From a virus: a stretch of 37,311 nt of DNA. The stretch lies in IMG/VR virus record IMGVR_UViG_3300027970_000072, positions 1-37,311 of that record; one strand, 5' to 3'. The notes beneath the pieces are model-generated. The model made no database searches, had not been told where the DNA came from, and worked only from the letters and a program-made list of their open reading frames with translations. This document shows, one piece after another, positions 1 to 37,311 of this stretch. The position numbers and the translations under genes were made by a program. The first letter of the stretch is position 1. Each line of letters begins with the position of its first letter.

Positions 1-392
1 TTTCCTGTAGATCCTTGATACATTCCTATTTCGAAAGATCCTCCAGTTGCACCACTTGCACCTTGAGGTCCTGTTAAATTTGTTCCTGAATTAACCCAAG
101 ATGTAGAACCAATACTCCAATAATAAACTTGACCTGTTGCACTAATCCAAAAATCAAAATCCTTAAGAGCTCCATAATTAGGTCCATGATCAGCAGTAGG
201 AGCAGTTGTTCCTACTTGCCAATGATCTCCTCTTTCTCCTTGAGGTCCAGGTATTCCAGGAACTCCTATAGGACCTAGAGGTCCTTGAGGACCTCCTCCA
301 GCTAAAATAAGTTGATCGAAGTTAAAATTTATTTTCTCTAGTGCTTCCGATAAAGGATCCGAAGGAAATAATTCCTTAATTACTATTGGCAT
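1..392 (-). CDS. Collagen-like tail fibre protein, N-terminal part (cut by window edge)
   Basis: The reading frame opens at ATG (392-390) and stays open for 130 codons to the window edge, so the C-terminus is missing. Residues 1-30 form a short helix containing EALEKINFNFDQ, like the anchor of many small phage fibres; the 189-residue protein at 10943 has a similar start. Residues 33-56 are Gly-X-Y triplets with Pro (GPQ, GPL, GPI and so on), a collagen-like trimeric stalk. A globular part with WQVGTTAP and DFWISATGQVYYW follows, then a second short Gly-X-Y stretch (GPQGASGATGG). The start lies 11 bases after the stop of the 1602-residue gene. A virion fibre role is inferred from the collagen stalk and the neighbours; no receptor domain is seen in the part present. 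Confidence 0.75.
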   Translation of the reverse strand, partial: MPIVIKELFPSDPLSEALEKINFNFDQLILAGGGPQGPLGPIGVPGIPGPQGERGDHWQVGTTAPTADHGPNYGALKDFDFWISATGQVYYWSIGSTSWVNSGTNLTGPQGASGATGGSFEIGMYQGSTG

Positions 393-19997: not shown

Positions 19998-21173
19998 TTA
20001 CATAGTAAAGTCGACTTTCTTAGATTCTTTGTCTATTTTTACTATTTTTACCTCTATTTCTTGACCTACCTCAAATTCATCATTTTCGTCTAGATGTGAT
20101 TTGTGTAAGAGACCTACGATTTTTGGTTCGATTTCAACGAAGATTCCGTATCGAACAACTCTTTTAACTTTACCTGTTACAATAGATGGAATCTTAAAAC
20201 GATTTTCTATATCGTCCCATGCATTGATTTGTGGTTCAGGTAATGATTGACTCAAAACAATTTTATCATTATCAATGATTTCCGAAACATAGAATTTAAT
20301 CGAATCTCCAGCTTTAATTCTACGATTTTCGAAATCATCCATTGAATCACTAGAAATATCTTTCTTAGCAATTAGACCAGTCAAACATTCGTTGAATTCT
20401 ACAAAGACGCCGTGTTTACTAACTCCCGTTACAAAACCTGTGTATTCAGTTGCAAACTGTAAAGATTTAATGCTTTGTGGGATGAGAGTTTTAAGATAAT
20501 CTCTATGAGAAACAACAATATAATCTTTCTCTTTCGAGTAATTAATTGGAACTACGTAGATATTTTTACCTATTAATGAATCGAAGTTAACCAACTTATT
20601 CATACCACCAAGCGAACCTGGCATAAAGCAACTAATTCCGTCGATATCAACGAAATAACCTCCATGAATAAGTTCTTTAACTGTAGCAGCATAAGCGACT
20701 GGATCGCCGACAGATGCCATAATTTCATCTTTCTTCTTAGATAGGATATTTTTAGAATATGAAGCTTGAATAGATAATGAATGTCTAGTTGGAACTTTCG
20801 AAACTCTTTCGATAAGAACCTCAATAGGGAATCCTTCTTGAATATATTTTAAGTAAGATGGATCCTCTTTAGAAAGATCTAACATAGCATCTTCTCTCCA
20901 ATTAACATCGATAATAGCAAATTCTTCACCGACCGATAGAACTTTACCATTAACAACTGAACCTTCTAATGGTTCTTTTAGATCTAGTGTTTTACCATAA
21001 TACTGCTCATAAAGATCTTGTGCATATGGCAAATGACAGTAAACTTTACTTTTATCACCAGAATGTTTTTTGATTGATTTGTTTTGTTTTAATTTTGGTG
21101 AATCAGCCTCATAGGAAATCCAATCAAATCCGGGAATACCTTCAGTTCGTAATTCTTTTTGTAATCTTGACAT
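19998..21173 (-). CDS. Ribosomal protein S1-like protein with four S1 RNA-binding domains (391 aa)
   Basis: Four S1/OB-fold repeats are visible, at about residues 69-137, 157-224, 240-310 and 330-391. The last two carry the classical G-x-V-x-x-V-x-x-(Y/H)-G-(V/I)-F-V-E signature: GFVTGVSKHGVFVEF and GKVKRVVRYGIFVEI. Each has the later G-L-(I/L) strand and the G-(D/Q)-x-(I/E)-x-x-x-V end. The 68-residue N-terminal extension is basic. Bacterial S1 binds the 30S subunit and mRNA leaders, and viral S1 homologues are known in large phages. The gene sits inside the tail operon, with 30 bases before its ATG. It could favour translation of phage mRNAs that lack Shine-Dalgarno sites, which is inference. 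Confidence 0.85.
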   Translation of the reverse strand: MSRLQKELRTEGIPGFDWISYEADSPKLKQNKSIKKHSGDKSKVYCHLPYAQDLYEQYYGKTLDLKEPLEGSVVNGKVLSVGEEFAIIDVNWREDAMLDLSKEDPSYLKYIQEGFPIEVLIERVSKVPTRHSLSIQASYSKNILSKKKDEIMASVGDPVAYAATVKELIHGGYFVDIDGISCFMPGSLGGMNKLVNFDSLIGKNIYVVPINYSKEKDYIVVSHRDYLKTLIPQSIKSLQFATEYTGFVTGVSKHGVFVEFNECLTGLIAKKDISSDSMDDFENRRIKAGDSIKFYVSEIIDNDKIVLSQSLPEPQINAWDDIENRFKIPSIVTGKVKRVVRYGIFVEIEPKIVGLLHKSHLDENDEFEVGQEIEVKIVKIDKESKKVDFTM

Positions 21174-26198: not shown

Positions 26199-28469
26199 TT
26201 AAAAAATTCCTTGAGCTGATTGAGCTAACAATTCATGAACGTTTTTGTGATTCGGAAATCTTTCTAATAACATGTTTACTGCTTCTTCTGCATCTTTAGG
26301 ATCCACTTGTTTATGTTTAGCTTGAGCAGAACTACTTTTGAATTTTGATTTAGTTCCTTTATTTTTTTTATTTCCTGGATATTTTTCAGCTGGACTCAAT
26401 GTCGTGTAAGTTCTTCCTCCTCTATGGAACATTGACATCATATCTGAACGATCTCTAGGTCTAGCCGGTTTTAAAGTACAAGTAACCGTTAATTTCGTGG
26501 GGAAATCGTCAGCACCTAAAGCACCATGTAAATGATATTCAGATTTTTCTAGAATCAAGTTTCCAATAGAAACTATAGGATTTGCAGGATTACCAACCAT
26601 AACGTGCCATTCACCGGTTTCTTCACCTGTAAGTAATGAATTTACTGCCTGAGCACCTGCAGCTCCTCCACCTCCTTGAGCACCATCCATAGCACCACCC
26701 ATGATATTAGACATCATGTTTCCGCCTATACCTTTAGCAGCATTAGCAATTCCTTCTAGAGTAAGACCTTCACCTCCCGTGAATTCTTTAATTCGGGTTC
26801 CTATATTATCTGTTAGAGATTTGAAATAACCCATATAATCACCAGCCATTAATTTAGCTGGATCACCCAAAGGTCCAACAGTTTTAGAGGATTCCCCTGC
26901 TCCACCACCTCCACCGAAGTGACGTATATCTCCACCCCAAAATTCACCTCTATTAGCCGTCATAACAAAGACGTTGGAAAGTAAATCGATCATAGCTACT
27001 TTTGGATTTATTCCGTCTATAGATCGAAGTTCATATTCAAATTTAAGAGTAAATTCTTGTTCAAAAAGAAGTCCTTTATCTCTCATCATCATTGTCTTAA
27101 TAACATCAAGAGGACCATAAACAACGTTTTTATTAGCATAAGGATCATTACCAGATCCACCGTTATTATTTGTCTTATCCGTAAATGCTCCTGGAGGAGA
27201 ACCTGGAGGTTTTTGTGTGATCCACGAAACAGCTTTAATTGCACTCCCTAAACCACCACCGATAGCAGCACCTTCATTTCCTTGTTTAGTTTTATTATGT
27301 GAAATTAATCCATTTGATACGTATGTATGAGCATCTCCAATTTCTATAATCATAACTTCACCAAAACCGATTGCTTTAATAGAAGTTATCATTTGATTTC
27401 CAGAGATTCCTTTTATTAGATCGCCTGCTTCAAGATCATGAGACTTCTTCCAATTACCGAAAGAATCCATAAATTTATGTGTAGTGGAAACGACTATATT
27501 TGATCCATCTCTAAATTCGATAGAAACTTTAGGTTGTGTAGTTCTTTCGATGTGAATAACAGGGAATCTACCCCATTTCCTTGTATATTCATGTAAAGTC
27601 CAAACTGTATCACCAACTTTAAGTTTTCCTGCTTTTATAGATAGTTTATCATTTATCATAATAGGCGTTTCAGGATCCGGACACCCACTACCACCTGAAA
27701 GGGTTTGAACTTCAGATTCCAGCTCTGTCCATTTCATAGAAGAAGTAAATTTAAGACCAACAGCCTCCCATGTATTAGCTTCACCATCAACCCAAGTAAT
27801 CAATCTAGAAATATCCGGAACAACAATCTTTTGCCAATCTAAAAGATCGTCTGTAATAGGTTGAGAAAATCTCCTCAAAGTAACCATATAATTATTAGGA
27901 ACAACTCCATAATTCTTACACCAAAGAAAATCTTCCCATGCATATTCAACTGCATTAGTTCCGATTCTCGGATCGCCAGATCCAGCATTACACCAATTTA
28001 TTAAATTTCTTGCAGTTGGATTTTCCAGAACATTTGTTAATCCTTCAGCTGGACCCATTGAAGATCCTAATGAGGCAGGAGTAGCTCCTGATTCAGCAGC
28101 CTCCATATCAGCAAGTGTTAATCCTGCATTTTGGGGTGGTGGTGCGGATCCTAAATCCTGAGGTTTGATTAGATCTCCAAGACGATTAGGTTTATCTATG
28201 TAAGGTTCCGGATTAGGACCTAAAGTTAATGAATTATAATAAAAAAGAGAATATCTATTGAATATGGATTGAGTCGCTTTTCTAGGAGAAGGATTCTTTG
28301 TAGTAAGAGATCCGTCAGATTTTATTCCTGTAACTCCCTTCGGTAAAGGTATATTAATCAAATTATCAGGATTCTGATCATAGAAACTCTGTAGGTAGGA
28401 TTCATCATTATTAGATGAAAGATCGTAATATGAATTTTCTCTACCAGTAAAACTTTGAATAGTCGCCAT
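26199..28469 (-). CDS. Tail tube-like structural protein interrupted by an intein-like Hint domain (756 aa)
   Basis: Residues 150-262 and 393-560 together seem to form one domain: LINWCNAGSGDPRIGT, DFLWCKNYGVVPNNYMVTLRRFSQP, then after the insert GLLFEQEFTLKFEYELRSIDG. A further beta-rich domain spans about 610-700 (EWHVMVGNPANPIVSIGNLIL, PTKLTVTCTLKPARPRDRSD). The C-terminus is basic. The pattern of an N-P-I-(V/I)-x-(I/V)-x-N-L segment with a preceding W-H-V-x-x-G-N is common in tube and tube-initiator proteins of contractile phages. The 130-residue insert at 263-392 is a Hint domain placed in a Gly/Ser-rich loop. The protein starts the hub gene block. A tube or tube-initiator role is inferred. 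Confidence 0.5.
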   Translation of the reverse strand: MATIQSFTGRENSYYDLSSNNDESYLQSFYDQNPDNLINIPLPKGVTGIKSDGSLTTKNPSPRKATQSIFNRYSLFYYNSLTLGPNPEPYIDKPNRLGDLIKPQDLGSAPPPQNAGLTLADMEAAESGATPASLGSSMGPAEGLTNVLENPTARNLINWCNAGSGDPRIGTNAVEYAWEDFLWCKNYGVVPNNYMVTLRRFSQPITDDLLDWQKIVVPDISRLITWVDGEANTWEAVGLKFTSSMKWTELESEVQTLSGGSGCPDPETPIMINDKLSIKAGKLKVGDTVWTLHEYTRKWGRFPVIHIERTTQPKVSIEFRDGSNIVVSTTHKFMDSFGNWKKSHDLEAGDLIKGISGNQMITSIKAIGFGEVMIIEIGDAHTYVSNGLISHNKTKQGNEGAAIGGGLGSAIKAVSWITQKPPGSPPGAFTDKTNNNGGSGNDPYANKNVVYGPLDVIKTMMMRDKGLLFEQEFTLKFEYELRSIDGINPKVAMIDLLSNVFVMTANRGEFWGGDIRHFGGGGGAGESSKTVGPLGDPAKLMAGDYMGYFKSLTDNIGTRIKEFTGGEGLTLEGIANAAKGIGGNMMSNIMGGAMDGAQGGGGAAGAQAVNSLLTGEETGEWHVMVGNPANPIVSIGNLILEKSEYHLHGALGADDFPTKLTVTCTLKPARPRDRSDMMSMFHRGGRTYTTLSPAEKYPGNKKNKGTKSKFKSSSAQAKHKQVDPKDAEEAVNMLLERFPNHKNVHELLAQSAQGIF
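27294..27683 (-). other. Intein-like Hint domain (bacterial-intein-like type, no endonuclease)
   Basis: Residues 263-392 of the 756-residue protein. Block A begins at Cys263 (GCPDPETPI). Block B is VVSTTHKF, with His331 and Ser328 where Thr is usual. A late block reads EVMIIEIGDAHTYVSNGLIS, and the domain ends His391-Asn392, the C-terminal cleavage pair. The next residue is Lys393, not Cys, Ser or Thr, so standard splicing lacks its second nucleophile. At 130 residues there is no room for a homing endonuclease. This matches BIL-type domains, which can cleave at either end and may splice poorly. Confidence 0.82.
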
Positions 28470-30936: not shown

Positions 30937-33900
30937 TTACGGATTTTGAATGAATCCAATTCCTCCATATGCACTTAAATTTTCTAAAAATTCAACTTTA
31001 TTTCCTTCTAATTCGTTCCAAAGCTGATCAACTCTACAATTAGCGTTCCTGTGAAATTCTGTATCTTTAATATCATGGAATCCAATCCAACCTCCAGGTT
31101 TAACAAATTCTTTATACATTTCATAATCTTGTTTAACTCCCTCGTAAGTATGATCTCCATCTATGAATAGAAAATCAAGTTTTTCTCCTTCTAATATGCT
31201 AGAAACTCTTTCTTTAATTGATTCATCATGTGAACTACCCCATATAGTTGTTACGTTAGATCCTAAAGATTGAAGATATTCGTCTCTTTCATATTCATTA
31301 TAATCAGGTCTACCGTAAGGTCCGTGTGGAAGATCAACTGAAATTCTAATTCCATCTTCTGATAGCTTACTCCATATTGCAAAAGATCCTCCTTGATCCG
31401 TTCCAATTTCCATAAAGTTTTTGACGCCTTGTGATTTGAAATGTTCTGCAGCTTCGAAAATTTCTTTATGGTTTTGAACCATTCCTAAATCGTAAGATTC
31501 TTGAACGATAACATCAATTGTCTTTTTAGAAACTCTTCCATTTGAATAAAATTCATCGATTGAATTAATAACCTCTTTACCTGTTATATGACGAGAACAT
31601 TCGAATTGTCTAGCAGTTCCTTTATGATCAGGACACCAATTCCAATCTCCTGCATCTAATCTATGTCTATTGAAACATCCATTACAAACTCCACCTTTGA
31701 ATATACGAATAACATTTTCATCCATTGCTTCTGTCATTGGTGTACTAAATCCAGAAATTATAACAGTTGGAACGTTTATTGCCCATGATAACCAACTCAA
31801 TCCACTTCCTATGCCAATAAACATATCAGAATGCTGTAAGTAATTGATTGTACTATTAAGGCTTCTTTCACCATGAATTTTAGTAATGCCTTTAGGGTAT
31901 CTATTTCCCATATAACCATCTTCTTCGAGACTTAGCATTACAACTTTATATCCTTTGCTTAAGAAATAATCAGTAACTTCTTGCCATCCGGTCGGATTGT
32001 TCCAGTATTTCGATTGTGCAGTAGAGTGCATTCCTATACAAACATAAGGTCCTTTAATCGAAGGAATGGAAATTGGTTTAACGATACGAGGTCTAAGTGG
32101 TGTATGTTCAAGACCCAAAATGTCAGTTGATGTTGCTTGCATCGGAATAGTTTTGAAATCTCTAGGGTTCAAATATGAATTAAATTCAGTACCGTTATAG
32201 AACCAACCTATTAAGTAAGTTACATAAACACCTTCAATTCGCTGACCGGGTTTAATGAATCGAAGATTTGGATAATTTGATTCAAAAAGTTCGTTTTTGA
32301 AAGTACTAACATAAACTTTACATTCATGTTTTTTCTGAAATTCTTCGATATGAGCAAACCAAGCGATTGAATCCCCTAAAGATTTAGATTCCATAGAGAT
32401 TTTAACCCTTTTACCTTTTAGATCCATTTTATGTTCTTCTACATCTCCAGTTATAAGATCGGTTATTCTTATTAACCAATCAACATAGTATTTTATCGAA
32501 CATGAGGTCCAATAATTCAATCCTATATTAGACAAATAAAGAACTTTACTGTTTTGATTATCAATAAATTCTACTTTGTAGGAACCTATTCCTCTACCTA
32601 AAATTTCTACTTTAGGACCGTTATTAAAGTTGATATTTATTTTCTTTTCTATCGATTCAAATCCAATTTCTTCCATCCAATCTTTACTATTTAGATTACT
32701 ATTTGCAATCTTTGTTGTCAAATCATATTTTCTACGTTCACCGTAGTCAGGTAAATTAACTGAGAATCCAACTTCTAACATAGAATTAGGAATACTTAAG
32801 AGTACCATCGGCTTTTGTCTAGGATCGGAAATAAATTCAGATTGTTTTCCTGCATATTCAATAACAAATTTAAGTGGTTCTTCGCGAGAACCTAAAGCAC
32901 ATAGAATATATTCTCCTGTTTGATTTTCTTTTGTGAGGTATAGATAGCTAGGATTTTTTGATTTCGTTTTGATTAGAGGGTATGTAGGTAGAACATAAGA
33001 ATTTAAGCAATTTTTATCTTTGATATCTTTTATAGAACCGAGTGAGATGGTTAATCCGGATTCTGTAAATGCTTTATGTAAAAAATCTTCAAGGATAACA
33101 ATTCCAGGGAATGAAAAATAATCTTGTTTCGAATTGAATTTTTCTAGACTTTTAAGAATAAGATCTGTTTTTCCAGAAAAAAATCCAGAATTAAGAGAAT
33201 CTTCTCCAGGGTTCCAATTGTATGAGAATATATCCGAATCGTTTAATTTGATAGAGTGATTTTCTAAAACTGAAGAATCTTTTATGATATAATCATAATT
33301 AACGAAATGAACTCTTTCATATTTATTAATACTAGCTATAGAAAGACCATTTTTTATAAGCTTAAGGGCAGCATATCCATGATTGAAATCGAATGAATAT
33401 GAAAGACTAAATTCATTATATTTGATGTAATGAACAGGAACTGTATTAGATAAAGATGTATATTCCTCTGAAAAAACAATAGGATTTTCTTTATCGAAAA
33501 CAACATAATCAGCTATATCGTGAATTCTTTTTGAAACAGGAATATGAGAAGAAACTATTACTGGATATCCTTGTCTCTTCAAAGACAAAATAGATAACCT
33601 AAGAAGTTCCTCTTTCTCGTCACTATCAGCATGAGACATAACAACTGTTGCATCCTTTTTTGTTGAATGTGTTATCTCATATTCGCTTACATTAAGTAAC
33701 TCTAGATAAGCTCTATTGGCAACATTCTCCCATGAGAATCTAGTTCTAATTTCTTCTTTATCCGATTCTGCTTTTGATTTGTGTTGGTAATAATTTTCAA
33801 AAACATCTTTCATTTTTATTCCCAGATCTGTAAAATCAGGTTCCGCATAAAGTCCTGGTGTATTTCCAGCAAAACCTAAATCCGCACCTATAGAAGCAGG

Positions 33901-34854
33901 AAGTTCCTTTTCAATTGAAACTGGAATCCCTTTACCACTAGCAAATTCTAGCTGAGCACCCCAATTTGAATAAATCGAAGGTGTTCCAGAAGCCATTGCT
34001 TCAATGAGTGGTATATTCCAACCTTCGCTTCTTGCACAACTTAAGAAAACATGACCTCTTTTTATGTAAGTAACATAATCTTCCCTTGAAAGAAAATGTT
34101 TAACTCGGATTCTTTCGTCTGTATATCCATAATGAGATAATCTTTCTTCAGTTGAGCTCATTCCATCAATTGAGAATGGATTATCTGCACTAAGAATTAG
34201 ATCGACTGGTTCATTTTGATTGAAAGTTTCTGTAAAAGTTTTAAGTATTTCTGGAACGGATTTTCTATAATCCCATCGACCAAAGAAAACAAATTTGAAT
34301 CTTCCATCTTCTAATTCTGGAATTTCTGAAGTTATTTCATCATGACAAAATTCATCATTAACTCCTTCATTTACAACAAATACTCTATGAGAAGGATAAC
34401 CTTGTTCGATTATCATATTTCTATGCCATTCAGTTACAACCCAAACGAAATCGAATTTAAGAAGTTGATTGAAGAAACCCTCTTCTAATTTCGTGCTTTC
34501 CCAAACCGTAAAAGCAATTTTAGTAGGTGAATCATATTCTTGATAAAAATACTTATGATGCATGTCCATAAGAACGATATCGACATCTGCTTCAAAACCT
34601 TCAGATTTATTAACCCAAGGGAGATTAGGAAATGAATGAGTGATTGGAAAATCTTCTTCACCTTTAGGTGTTCCTAAAGTTATAGTATCAATTAACGAGA
34701 AATCTTCTCCGTTTAAGTATTCCGGATTAGAATCCCATGTGTAATTTCTTACTCTTAAATCTACGTGCTTTGAAAATTCTCTAAAGAAAGATCTTGCGTG
34801 TGCAGAAAATCCAGTTGTTCCTAGGTAGCAGGTGTGTGCTCTAACTTTTATCAT
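30937..34854 (-). CDS. Multidomain glycosyltransferase / O-heptosyltransferase-like / methyltransferase fusion (1305 aa)
   Basis: Domains in order. Residues 1-395 form a GT4-family retaining glycosyltransferase, with FGRWDYRKSVPEILKTF and the E-x7-E motif at Glu277 and Glu285 (SEGWNIPLIEAMASG). Residues about 402-640 look like a GT-A-type transferase (VVMSHADSDEKEELLRLSIL, then VSSHIPV and DYVVFDKENP, with NYDYII as possible sugar-nucleotide site). Residues 640-815 are beta-rich. Residues about 815-1105 resemble GT9 and TibC-type O-heptosyltransferases (SLGDSIAW, GMHSTAQSKYWN, FIGIGSGLSWLSWA), with Cys1057, 1060, 1074 and 1086 spaced like an iron finger. Residues about 1125-1305 are a class I SAM methyltransferase (MEIGTDQGGSF, DFLFIDGDHTYEG). 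No membrane segment. It probably modifies virion or host surface glycans; the target is unknown. Confidence 0.78.
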   Translation of the reverse strand: MIKVRAHTCYLGTTGFSAHARSFFREFSKHVDLRVRNYTWDSNPEYLNGEDFSLIDTITLGTPKGEEDFPITHSFPNLPWVNKSEGFEADVDIVLMDMHHKYFYQEYDSPTKIAFTVWESTKLEEGFFNQLLKFDFVWVVTEWHRNMIIEQGYPSHRVFVVNEGVNDEFCHDEITSEIPELEDGRFKFVFFGRWDYRKSVPEILKTFTETFNQNEPVDLILSADNPFSIDGMSSTEERLSHYGYTDERIRVKHFLSREDYVTYIKRGHVFLSCARSEGWNIPLIEAMASGTPSIYSNWGAQLEFASGKGIPVSIEKELPASIGADLGFAGNTPGLYAEPDFTDLGIKMKDVFENYYQHKSKAESDKEEIRTRFSWENVANRAYLELLNVSEYEITHSTKKDATVVMSHADSDEKEELLRLSILSLKRQGYPVIVSSHIPVSKRIHDIADYVVFDKENPIVFSEEYTSLSNTVPVHYIKYNEFSLSYSFDFNHGYAALKLIKNGLSIASINKYERVHFVNYDYIIKDSSVLENHSIKLNDSDIFSYNWNPGEDSLNSGFFSGKTDLILKSLEKFNSKQDYFSFPGIVILEDFLHKAFTESGLTISLGSIKDIKDKNCLNSYVLPTYPLIKTKSKNPSYLYLTKENQTGEYILCALGSREEPLKFVIEYAGKQSEFISDPRQKPMVLLSIPNSMLEVGFSVNLPDYGERRKYDLTTKIANSNLNSKDWMEEIGFESIEKKININFNNGPKVEILGRGIGSYKVEFIDNQNSKVLYLSNIGLNYWTSCSIKYYVDWLIRITDLITGDVEEHKMDLKGKRVKISMESKSLGDSIAWFAHIEEFQKKHECKVYVSTFKNELFESNYPNLRFIKPGQRIEGVYVTYLIGWFYNGTEFNSYLNPRDFKTIPMQATSTDILGLEHTPLRPRIVKPISIPSIKGPYVCIGMHSTAQSKYWNNPTGWQEVTDYFLSKGYKVVMLSLEEDGYMGNRYPKGITKIHGERSLNSTINYLQHSDMFIGIGSGLSWLSWAINVPTVIISGFSTPMTEAMDENVIRIFKGGVCNGCFNRHRLDAGDWNWCPDHKGTARQFECSRHITGKEVINSIDEFYSNGRVSKKTIDVIVQESYDLGMVQNHKEIFEAAEHFKSQGVKNFMEIGTDQGGSFAIWSKLSEDGIRISVDLPHGPYGRPDYNEYERDEYLQSLGSNVTTIWGSSHDESIKERVSSILEGEKLDFLFIDGDHTYEGVKQDYEMYKEFVKPGGWIGFHDIKDTEFHRNANCRVDQLWNELEGNKVEFLENLSAYGGIGFIQNP

Positions 34855-34892: not shown

Positions 34893-35414
34893 TTATCCGT
34901 TTGATGCTTTTATCCATTGGCAAGTTAAATTATCAGAAGTACTAACAACAGAACCTGCCACAATTAAATATTGATTAGTCGTCCAATTTATTAATAAAGT
35001 AGAAAATCCTGTTGTATAGTTAACAACACCAATATCATCTCTCGCATCAATACTTGAATTAATCGCTATTGTTGCATTTCCTGTTCCTGCTGCAACATTT
35101 ATTGCCAATCTTCTATATAACTGAGAGGCTCTTGTTGCTGCGACTATACCTGAACTAGTGTTTTTTGCTATTAAAATTGCCCCTATTAAACTTGCAGAAG
35201 TGTTAATATAAAAATATTGACCAAAAATGTTATTTGTTGCCGATTTTGAAATACACGTTTCTATTGTAACAATATCATCAGCAACAAATGTGTTCGCCGG
35301 TATTAAAATAGAATGAATTAAAGTTATAGATGCGGAGTTTACACTTCCCGTTGGTGTAGTAGATGTAACTACTGCGTATTTTTTTCCTACATTAAATCCG
35401 TCTATTTTAGCCAT
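34893..35414 (-). CDS. Fibre-tip or receptor-binding-like protein, tandem paralog 1 (173 aa)
   Basis: This is one of three paralogs. It begins MAKIDGFN, has LIPANTFVADDIV at about 35-48, and ends NWTTNQYLIVAGS ... DNLTCQWIKASNG. Strands alternate with polar loops throughout, and there are no helices of note, so a jelly-roll or similar beta sandwich is likely. It overlaps the next paralog by 8 bases. Small beta sandwiches at the end of tail-fibre operons often act as receptor-binding or decoration proteins. That function is inferred from position and fold pattern, without a recognised family. Confidence 0.5.
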   Translation of the reverse strand: MAKIDGFNVGKKYAVVTSTTPTGSVNSASITLIHSILIPANTFVADDIVTIETCISKSATNNIFGQYFYINTSASLIGAILIAKNTSSGIVAATRASQLYRRLAINVAAGTGNATIAINSSIDARDDIGVVNYTTGFSTLLINWTTNQYLIVAGSVVSTSDNLTCQWIKASNG

Positions 35415-35925
35415 TTGTTATTCTTATCCATTGACAGTTTATGTTATCCGATGCGTTGTCAACATCACCTGCTAATACAATATAACTATCTATCGTCCAA
35501 TTTATTGCCAAAGAACTTGGGGTTGTGGTTAAAGCGGAATTTACTACATAATCTGCATTAACATCTACAGTATTCAACAATACATTAGTCCCATTTCCTG
35601 AACCATCTGACACCATAATACTAAGCCTTCTTACAAAAAGTATTGCGGTTATGGTTGCCGCAACACCTATGTTTTCGGCAATTTGAACCGGAGTTGTCAA
35701 ATCGTCAGTATTGTTCCAATATAATCTTACATTTGAAACTGCGTTAGTTCCTGTTTTTTTTACAAAAGATTCAAGTTTAACGACATCAGATGTCTTAAAT
35801 GTATTCGCAGGAACAAAAATAGAACCCAACTTAACTTCTGTTAACGAAGATGTGGTTGATTGAGGCGTTGTCAAACTTATTGTTTGAAACGGGTTATACA
35901 TATTAAATCCGTTAATTTTTGTCAT
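35407..35925 (-). CDS. Fibre-tip or receptor-binding-like protein, tandem paralog 2 (172 aa)
   Basis: It starts MTKINGFNMYNPF and shares with paralogs 1 and 3 the VPANTF motif, the RLYWNNTDDLTTPVQIA segment (with paralog 3, as NLYWNETDDLTTPIQL), a RRLSI strand and the NWTIDSYIVLAGD strand near the end; it closes with DNINCQWIRITNG as in paralog 1. It overlaps the 87-residue ORF by ATGA. Beta-rich, with no signal or membrane part. It is nearer paralog 3 in the middle and nearer paralog 1 at the end, which fits mosaic exchange. Confidence 0.52.
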   Translation of the reverse strand: MTKINGFNMYNPFQTISLTTPQSTTSSLTEVKLGSIFVPANTFKTSDVVKLESFVKKTGTNAVSNVRLYWNNTDDLTTPVQIAENIGVAATITAILFVRRLSIMVSDGSGNGTNVLLNTVDVNADYVVNSALTTTPSSLAINWTIDSYIVLAGDVDNASDNINCQWIRITNG

Positions 35926-36185
35926 TTCAGGTCGTATACATAATTTATAAAGTCTTGAGAAACTAAAAATGAAATACTATTAATAGTGATATCTCTAACT
36001 TTGAAAAAAATAATGTTTCCGTCAAGTTCAATTGAAACGTCTTCGTCATTATTTGTAAAATAACCTTTTTGACCATTTTCATCCTCCATTAAAAATGTTA
36101 AAGTTCTCGGAATATCTAAAAAAGAAGACCCCTCTGAATCAATTTTTTTAACTAATGTGTTTCCTTTTTTTTCTAAATGTATCAT
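35922..36185 (-). CDS. Small unrelated protein between paralogs 2 and 3 (87 aa)
   Basis: ATG at 36185 is 4 bases after paralog 3, and its stop overlaps paralog 2 as ATGA. It reads as beta-rich (KKGNTLVKKIDS, RTLTFLMEDENGQKGYFTNND, VSIELDGNIIFFKVRDITI) with no motif I recognise. It lacks the M-x-K-I-x-G-F-N start of its neighbours. It may be a tail-fibre adaptor or chaperone; the function is unknown. Confidence 0.45.
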   Translation of the reverse strand: MIHLEKKGNTLVKKIDSEGSSFLDIPRTLTFLMEDENGQKGYFTNNDEDVSIELDGNIIFFKVRDITINSISFLVSQDFINYVYDLK

Positions 36186-36189
36186 ATTT

Positions 36190-36696
36190 TTAATTACTTA
36201 CTTTTAAGAATTCTGTTCTAATTCCTGTTCCAACCCCACAAAAACCGGCGACTATTATGTATGAATCCACTGTCCAATTTAGTGCGACGGTAGATAAAAC
36301 AAAAGTCGCCGACGCAAAATCCGCGTCAAGTCCATTTGCTACCCCATAAATTTTAGAACCATTTCCTGTCCCGTCTGCAACAATTATCGATAACCTTCTA
36401 TTTTGACCGTAAAATTTACTTGTGTTATTTAGTGACCTTGTGGTTAATTGTATCGGTGTTGTCAAATCATCGGTTTCGTTCCAGTATAAATTTGTTGTGT
36501 TGGTCGATGTTGTAGAACCTGTTAGTCTATATTGCCATTCTATATGTAAGATATCACCAGCAGTAAAAGTATTTGCAGGAACATAAACAGATGTAATTTT
36601 AGTTGTTGACGCCGCATTGACAACGGAACTTGGCATTCCGTTTGTTAAAACAACTTGTTTATTATTATAAAAATTAAATCCGTTAATTTTACTCAT
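36190..36696 (-). CDS. Fibre-tip or receptor-binding-like protein, tandem paralog 3 (168 aa)
   Basis: It starts MSKINGFNFYNN and has YVPANTFTAGDIL, NLYWNETDDLTTPIQL, RRLSIIVADGTGNGS and NWTVDSYIIVAG. Its C-terminus (RTEFLKVSN) differs from the CQWI ends of paralogs 1 and 2. It starts 4 bases after the fibre-like gene at 36701, so the two are probably translated together. It is likely a beta sandwich on the virion surface. Host recognition is inferred only. Confidence 0.5.
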   Translation of the reverse strand: MSKINGFNFYNNKQVVLTNGMPSSVVNAASTTKITSVYVPANTFTAGDILHIEWQYRLTGSTTSTNTTNLYWNETDDLTTPIQLTTRSLNNTSKFYGQNRRLSIIVADGTGNGSKIYGVANGLDADFASATFVLSTVALNWTVDSYIIVAGFCGVGTGIRTEFLKVSN

Positions 36697-36700
36697 ATAA

Positions 36701-37311
36701 TTAAATTTCTACCCATGTATTATCAGGACTAAAATAGATAATTTCATTTGTTCCGTCTATACTATAACCGATTATTCTAATCACATCACCACTACCTGAT
36801 GGTGCTGTTGTTGTTACTCCTCCTCCTGCGGTTGTTGAAACATATACAATATCACCTGTAGTTGTTGAAAATCCTGAATTTATAATATATCCTCTAACTA
36901 ACATACCCTCAGACGGGGAAGAACCAAGAGCAAATGCTAACATTCCTGTTGAGGACGATGTTGAATCGGCATCAGCTGCCGACCAACCACCTAAGGCGTC
37001 CAAATAATATAAATCCCCTGCCGTTAATGTACCACTACCAAATGTTACAATATCACCATAACCACTAACAGAAGAAGTTAATTCAGCTGTTGGGTCATGA
37101 ACAAATCTATAATCTCCAAGAACGTCGAGCTTTGTGGATGGTGAAATACCAATTCCTACCGCATCATTTGTGGCACTAACACTGAGAAGGTTGGCATCGG
37201 ACCCTCCCTTGATGAGGAAGTCCGATGATGAGTTTTGTGAATCATTAAAAATTGAAGAGCCTTGCGAAGTTATGATTGCATAGTTGCTACCACCATCTTT
37301 TGTCTCTACCT
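36701..37311 (-). CDS. Tail-fibre-like protein, C-terminal part (cut by window edge)
   Basis: The frame is open from 36701 to the window edge with no stop, so the gene begins outside the window. A TTG at 37003 would be a false start, because coding sequence of normal quality continues upstream of it. The upstream part includes SSDFLIKGGSDANLLSVSA followed by DAVGIGISPSTKLDVLGDY, the V-G-I-G-x-S-P-x-x-K-L-x-V motif common in long phage tail fibres. The C-terminus is beta-rich (GMLVRGYIINSGFSTTTGDI, VIRIIGYSIDGTNEIIYFSP) and ends NTWVEI. Probably a long fibre or fibre adaptor. Confidence 0.7.
   Translation of the reverse strand, partial: VETKDGGSNYAIITSQGSSIFNDSQNSSSDFLIKGGSDANLLSVSATNDAVGIGISPSTKLDVLGDYRFVHDPTAELTSSVSGYGDIVTFGSGTLTAGDLYYLDALGGWSAADADSTSSSTGMLAFALGSSPSEGMLVRGYIINSGFSTTTGDIVYVSTTAGGGVTTTAPSGSGDVIRIIGYSIDGTNEIIYFSPDNTWVEI

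Follow-up and report, generated by a model that had tools for sequence, protein, structure and literature searches.

A phage protein with two glycosyltransferase domains, a TibC-like domain and a methyltransferase domain, and its association with Gly-[Ser/Thr]-Ser fibres

What might a phage build with one protein that carries several sugar-transferring domains and a methyl-transferring one? The question is raised by a multidomain glycosyltransferase/methyltransferase gene in IMGVR_UViG_3300027970_000072, a linear virus record of IMG/VR of 37,311 bases; this whole stretch was analysed and is called the window below. The gene, at 30937–34854 on the minus strand, is a single uninterrupted frame of 1305 amino acids starting with ATG. 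Baseplate-wedge, hub-lysozyme and head-tail adaptor proteins are also encoded in the window, supporting its phage origin. The initial annotation had described a GT4-type domain, a second, GT-A-like glycosyltransferase, an O-heptosyltransferase-like domain and a methyltransferase, and had proposed that the phage builds and caps a glycan on its own fibres. The domain content is confirmed, with all parts lying in the one frame, and homology, fold and genomic association all give good support to reading the protein as part of a self-decorating fibre system. The most likely acceptor is a collagen-like fibre with Gly-[Ser/Thr]-Ser repeats.

Domains of the 1305-residue protein

The gene and its parts are arranged as follows.

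30937–34854, minus strand: multidomain glycosyltransferase/methyltransferase gene
33670–34854, minus strand: GT4-type glycosyltransferase domain (GT-B fold), residues 1–395
32995–33651, minus strand: GT-A-fold glycosyltransferase domain, residues 402–620, from alignment, AlphaFold and Foldseek
32650–32994, minus strand: beta-rich linker domain, residues 621–735, from the secondary structure of the AlphaFold model
31546–32649, minus strand: TibC-like O-heptosyltransferase-type domain (N-terminal beta-barrel and GT-B), residues 736–1103
31597–31686, minus strand: iron-finger segment with Cys1057, Cys1060, Cys1074 and Cys1086
31069–31410, minus strand: class I S-adenosylmethionine (SAM)-dependent O-methyltransferase domain, residues 1149–1262

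The TibC-like domain scores 308.5 bits against TIGR04414 (curated cut-off 200; residues 736–1100, E = 6e-92), and the sequence of TibC in the PDB (4rap) matches residues 739–1103 with E = 5e-64. An AlphaFold model of residues 736–1305, with a predicted local distance difference test (pLDDT) value of 87, matches 4rap by fold with E = 1e-34 over 378 columns (template modelling score by target length, TMt, 0.85; root-mean-square deviation 3.1), with both the barrel and the GT-B part present. The domain had been placed at residues 815–1105; family and fold agree with this, except that it starts at about residue 736, as the N-terminal beta-barrel belongs to it. Asp828, Thr945, Lys949 and Trp1021 correspond to D110, T226, K230 and W305 of TibC, and the four cysteines align one-to-one with Cys339, Cys342, Cys358 and Cys370 of the TibC iron finger, so that the cysteine cluster noted earlier is a predicted iron-binding site. 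In TibC, D110 acts as the base, K230 and W305 are donor residues, W305 contacting the heptose O4, and the cysteines form the iron finger (PMC4358343). The four cysteines, D110, K230 and W305 are kept in all 55 distinct phage domains compared; T226 is Thr or Ser.

Two donor-site residues differ from TibC: Thr1002 takes the place of R286 and Gly1016 that of P300. Arg286 of TibC hydrogen-bonds to adenine N1, and its replacement abolished or largely diminished activity (PMC4358343). Arginine occupies this position in 58/58 canonical bacterial domains, in 3/55 phage domains and in none of seven near-bacterial ones, while Pro300, the stereoselectivity residue, is Gly or Ser in the phage-type clade. 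The three first-set phage domains that retain Arg286 (L018, L068 and L021 7268–8452) are possibly still users of ADP-heptose.

In a tree of 88 domains, 43 canonical sequences of the autotransporter type are set apart from 45 phage and near-bacterial ones; this split has a Shimodaira-Hasegawa-like approximate likelihood ratio (SH-aLRT) support of 100, by a quick method and with one long branch. On this placement, the TibC-like domain belongs to a large, mostly phage-borne clade that is sister to the autotransporter heptosyltransferases, and nucleotide recognition has probably changed across that clade. The TibC-type O-heptosyltransferase identity given in the initial annotation is thus upheld by TIGR04414, 4rap and the cysteines, and qualified by the sister position and by Thr1002. 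Compared with the bacterial autotransporter heptosyltransferases (BAHT) TibC and AAH (TIGR04414; PMC4358343), the window protein has the same fold, N-terminal barrel, catalytic Asp, Thr/Lys/Trp donor contacts and four-Cys finger, but it lacks Arg286 and Pro300 and is fused to two glycosyltransferases and a methyltransferase; its clade also differs in being mostly phage-borne and linked to Gly-[Ser/Thr]-Ser fibres. Because Arg286 and acceptor features of the TIGR04415 type were looked for and found absent, we file it as TibC-like and not as a BAHT member.

The remaining domains are also identifiable. PF00534 (40 bits) and PF13692 (38 bits) both exceed their Pfam gathering scores in residues 1–395, where phrog_2170 matches with E = 6e-29 and the E-x7-E motif is EGWNIPLIE, from Glu277 (277–285). 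Residues 396–735 match no Pfam or NCBIfam family; their AlphaFold model (pLDDT 86) has a GT-A fold, in agreement with the second glycosyltransferase noted earlier. A Foldseek search of this model against the PDB returned glycogenin, COLGALT1 and LH3 (probability 1.00), with template modelling scores of only 0.33–0.5, so 'GT-A fold glycosyltransferase' is the limit of the assignment. In the alignment of residues 402–620, Asn, Ala, Tyr-Asp, Tyr and Glu are invariant; NYD at 519–521 is a DxD-like candidate, its invariant Tyr-Asp (520–521) being the putative acidic metal motif. At the C-terminus, Methyltransf_24 matches residues 1149–1262 with 60 bits (cut-off 26, E = 4e-16), the SAM-binding motif EIGTDQGG lies at residue 1149, and this part of the model resembles the Rossmann O-methyltransferase folds of TrmR, COMT and SafC in the PDB (TMt around 0.6). 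The fold-level search therefore recovered both the TibC-like and the methyltransferase folds.

Gly-[Ser/Thr]-Ser fibres as the likely acceptor

TibC targets autotransporter repeats of the TIGR04415 type. These beta-helix repeats were found in none of 16 enzyme-carrying phage records, many of them fragments, while an E. coli control was positive; strand-loop-strand repeats of this kind were rejected as the acceptor. Near the fused-type enzymes, nearly every locus contains a giant fibre with 35–149 Gly-x-y triplets, mostly rich in Ser/Thr. In 1483 triplets, position X is Thr in 46% and Ser in 41%, position Y is Ser in 87%, and proline amounts to about 1%.

A non-circular test was made by scanning IMG/VR with only a DNA pattern for (Gly-[S/T]-[S/T])13 and taking 50 records of at least 20 kb. 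TIGR04414 exceeded its curated cut-off in 21 of these, as against 0/44 records selected for proline-rich collagen (Gly-Pro-x pattern; Fisher p = 1.5e-7) and 0/30 picked by an arbitrary AT-rich 16-mer (p = 1e-5). On these two controls, a link that would arise with collagen-like phages of any kind was rejected. The 14 alignable TibC domains from the pattern-selected records have a median pairwise identity of 39%, none above 66%, which indicates that the association does not come from one lineage. The repeat is present in 32/36 enzyme-positive records tested; since 21 of the 36 had been chosen by the repeat, the informative part is 11/15, against 0/19 random records. Among records with stand-alone enzymes, the repeat occurs elsewhere in the genome in 4/12 (G013, G015, G146 and G149), which include the three longest (136, 169 and 271 kb). 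Extremely long uninterrupted Gly-x-y runs in phage contigs, with 929 triplets in L190 and 785 in L105, have 81–85% Ser/Thr at X and Y.

Bacterial chromosomes show the same association. Seven nearest cellular relatives of the enzyme were taken from 84,980 species genomes, and five of them directly adjoin a gene whose small product, a secreted protein or a lipoprotein, carries 12–37 (Gly-Thr-Ser/Ala) triplets. These two-gene pairs of TibC-like enzyme and (Gly-Thr-Ser/Ala)n protein (L205–L209) are from Methylomicrobium, two Methylobacter, a Methylococcaceae metagenome-assembled genome (MAG) and a Polaromonas MAG. For a sixth, phage-like relative in a Rickettsiaceae MAG (L203), an 871-residue repeat fibre is encoded 1.1 kb away. 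No comparable repeat run was found beside canonical enzymes (0/52 loci), giving Fisher values of 4e-6 for 5/7 and 1.6e-7 for 6/7. These pairs are the strongest argument that the repeat, and not another phage protein, is the acceptor.

In the window, the following features lie next to the enzyme gene.

34893–36696, minus strand: four small open reading frames (ORFs; 173, 172, 87 and 168 amino acids), between fibre and enzyme, Ser/Thr-rich where measured
36701–37309, minus strand: C-terminal end of a fibre protein whose gene runs off the contig

The product of the second shares 46–51% identity with the C-terminal region of the collagen-like repeat fibres of G001, G002 and G004 (L002, L003 and L005), in which 81–102 Gly-[Ser/Thr]-Ser triplets precede that region. 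On this homology, the window phage would carry such a fibre. The placement of the enzyme beside fibre genes, as first described, thus holds for the fibre's C-terminal end, the rest of the gene lying past the window edge. Two of the four small ORFs are paralogues, and their clusters c26 and c42 also have members in L002 and L005; the small ORFs are probably fibre accessory proteins. A second, proline-type collagen-like stretch of eight Gly-x-y triplets (3–392, minus strand) belongs to an ORF that is truncated at the opposite end of the contig. The 55 kb record IMGVR_UViG_3300028553_000034 (L409/G110) encodes a baseplate protein 100% identical to that of the window, but the fibre end of the window has no match in it; it may come from the same phage carrying another fibre, or be incomplete.

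Fused and split toolkits and the donor sugar

All four parts are also found in one frame in contigs L002, L003, L004 and L006, so the fusion did not arise through misassembly. Three-part GT4-GTA-TibC proteins occur in L005 and L018 and, with a long intervening stretch, in L007 and Microcystis phage Mel-JY01 (L082), the latter an isolate whose repeat has 149 triplets; L068 has GT4-TibC, and L009 and L017 have GTA-TibC. Arrangements across the relatives thus include GT4-GTA-TibC-MT (MT, methyltransferase), GT4-TibC, [GT4-MT]+[TibC] and [GT4-FkbM MT]+[MT-GTA-TibC]. In 57 loci, a stand-alone TibC-like gene of about 385 residues is preceded by a gene of about 725 residues, overlapping it in at least 45; the latter, in the representative that was tested (L043), encodes GT4 and Methyltransf_24. 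The recurrence of the same toolkit, fused or split, favours a single pathway. In L017, a radical SAM protein of the twitch family (NF033640; 6889–7962) is encoded directly upstream of the GT4-FkbM/TibC-like pair.

The split loci also bear on the donor. The next gene belongs to a cluster of 129-residue proteins resembling HldE domain II, a nucleotidyltransferase, in 25/57 stand-alone loci (TIGR02199 gave E = 9e-26 and 6e-29 for the two members tested). In 18 loci there is, in addition, a gene of a kinase cluster resembling HldE domain I (TIGR02198, E = 7e-26 for the single member tested). The nucleotidyltransferase has similarity to CTP:glycerol-3-phosphate enzymes as well. Conserved phage operons of GT4+MT, TibC-like and HldE-II-like genes are seen at L043 5776–9490, L078 5806–10241, L074 5794–10226 and similar loci; some add the HldE-I-like kinase, and a homologue of the large terminase (Mel-JY01) lies a few genes downstream. 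A heptose pathway common to all these phages was rejected, as TIGR02199-like genes are present in only 6/37 records and GmhA-like ones in 2/27. The fused-type phage G004 (L005) has a sugar cassette (L468, G004:37500–55000) with Kdo8P synthase, a KpsF-like (Kdo isomerase-like) gene, Gmd (GDP-mannose dehydratase), an RfbH/PseC-like aminotransferase, and AroB-like phospholyase, GmhA-like and HldE-II-like genes. Heptose is favoured as the donor sugar for the family, not specifically for the window protein.

Elsewhere in the window, the 756-residue ORF at 26199–28469 (minus strand) has weak intein/HINT matches around residues 261–387, which may mark an intein within a structural protein of the phage. 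A protein encoded among the baseplate genes, at 19998–21173 (minus strand), matches the S1 RNA-binding domain three times (PF00575, E = 7e-33).

Proposed pathway, alternatives and significance

Taken together, the window protein is probably a cytoplasmic protein O-glycosyltransferase with several active sites, which gives the collagen-like fibre of its own phage, on the tail or elsewhere on the virion, a first sugar, an extension and a methyl cap. The acceptor, the activity, the identity of the sugar, the order of addition and the coating of the virion are what we infer in the scheme that follows. The TibC-like domain would transfer the first sugar, most likely heptose from a nucleotide-diphosphate donor, to Ser/Thr hydroxyls of the repeats; the GT-A and GT4 domains would extend the glycan with more sugars, and O-methylation by the C-terminal domain would cap it. 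Glycosylation would take place in the cytoplasm on freshly synthesised fibre chains and would precede or accompany their trimerisation. TibC likewise acts before export. Probable roles of the glycan are to stabilise the proline-free repeat, to shield the fibre and to tune adsorption; glycosylation is thought to help the collagen-like protein BclA (PMC8968730). The multi-sugar glycan built and capped on the phage's own fibres, as initially proposed, agrees with homology, fold and association, while the single-protein assembly line turns out to be only one of several arrangements. A more specific proposal, which we make tentatively and with considerable doubt, is that this widespread clade is a dedicated modification system placing a non-ADP (perhaps CDP) heptose, partly made by phage HldE-like enzymes, on repeat Ser/Thr in replacement of proline/hydroxyproline stabilisation, with methanotrophs and relatives keeping a minimal two-gene chromosomal version.

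Several observations weigh against the proposed pathway. Arg286 is lost in 52/55 phage domains, that of the window included, and the donor may therefore be something other than ADP-heptose. The tested HldE-like members score under the NCBIfam curated cut-offs, and no HldE-II-like gene is found in the window (incomplete) or in the Mel-JY01 genome (complete), both of which would thus rely on host sugar nucleotides. In the window itself, long Gly-[Ser/Thr]-Ser runs are absent, the fibre gene continuing past the contig end. TIGR04414 has no match in 29/50 fibre-bearing records, though most are fragmentary, and no fibre repeat was detected in the TibC-like records G010, G011, G144 and G145, in a set made up mostly of fragments. 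The Gly-Pro control was unmatched in base composition and lineage; a lineage-matched control sought through the window's baseplate protein met with only five relatives in the collection.

The changes at Arg286 and Pro300 and the missing HldE-II-like genes, together with the other sugar pathways of G004, would also fit a fibre that is glycosylated by a TibC-like domain using a nucleotide-diphosphate sugar other than heptose. Against this stand the HldE-like kinase and nucleotidyltransferase genes that come after the enzyme gene in many loci of the stand-alone type and the conservation of D110, K230 and the heptose-contacting W305. We regard a non-heptose donor as a serious possibility without expecting it; it is a variant of the proposed pathway, and the probabilities of the two overlap. 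Glycosyltransferases that phages encode close to their tail fibres are commonly taken to modify the host, for example in pelagimyophages (PMC7029224), and the window enzyme could likewise act during infection on lipopolysaccharide (LPS), a capsule or a surface protein of the host, in the manner of phage enzymes that modify the O-antigen, leading to superinfection exclusion, its proximity to the fibre reflecting a shared host-interaction region. A match to Glyco_transf_9, a Pfam family that includes LPS heptosyltransferases, and the Kdo8P-synthase, Gmd and aminotransferase genes of G004 point that way; however, the LPS models reach 26 bits against 308 for TIGR04414, a score on which an LPS core heptosyltransferase was rejected, and the barrel and iron finger specific to TibC are present. 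As the association is with Gly-[Ser/Thr]-Ser repeats, not with collagen-like proteins generally, and recurs in the bacterial pairs, action on the host surface seems unlikely. Slightly less likely still is another acceptor in the virion or neighbourhood, such as the products of 34893–36696 or a non-repeat tail protein, with an indirect link to the repeat: small Ser/Thr-rich proteins do lie between fibre and enzyme and several TibC-like records have no repeat, but it is the repeat, not the small proteins, that the bacterial pairs and the pattern-only scan have in common.

Phage self-glycosylation, glycosylated collagen-like proteins and TibC-type enzymes are each already known. To our knowledge, the glycosyltransferases acting on the collagen-like proteins BclA and BclA3 are not TibC-like. 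BclA of Bacillus is, like the proposed fibre, glycosylated by dedicated glycosyltransferases (PMC8968730), and in Clostridioides difficile BclA3 is paired with the glycosyltransferase SgtA (PMC7157674); both are spore-surface proteins with proline-containing GPT repeats, whereas the phage fibres have about 1% proline. Mycobacteriophages such as Che8 also decorate their own particles with phage glycosyltransferases (Freeman 2023, cited in PMC12619734 and PMC11256854), but on capsid and tail tube, not on a collagen-like fibre, and the portions of these two papers at hand mention no TibC-like enzyme. EPclA of E. coli prophages shares collagen-like repeats in tail fibres; the recombinant protein was not glycosylated (PMC3368898), and the fibres described here have about 87% Ser/Thr at X and Y. 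In the open-licence literature, which misses most subscription papers, we found no prior description of GTSGSSG-type repeats in phages and no link between heptosyltransferases, collagen-like proteins and phages. The combination, the phage-type clade and its connection to a Gly-[Ser/Thr]-Ser acceptor therefore appear to be new.

For many glycosyltransferases of uncultured phages, otherwise read as modifiers of LPS or DNA, these results provide a specific hypothesis of acceptor and donor. The bacterial pairs of enzyme and (Gly-Thr-Ser)n protein are compact models for the bench. If the proposed pathway is true, iron-finger O-heptosyltransferases extend from bacterial adhesins to viral fibres, and there would be a way for collagen-like fibres without proline, hundreds of triplets long, to be stabilised or shielded.

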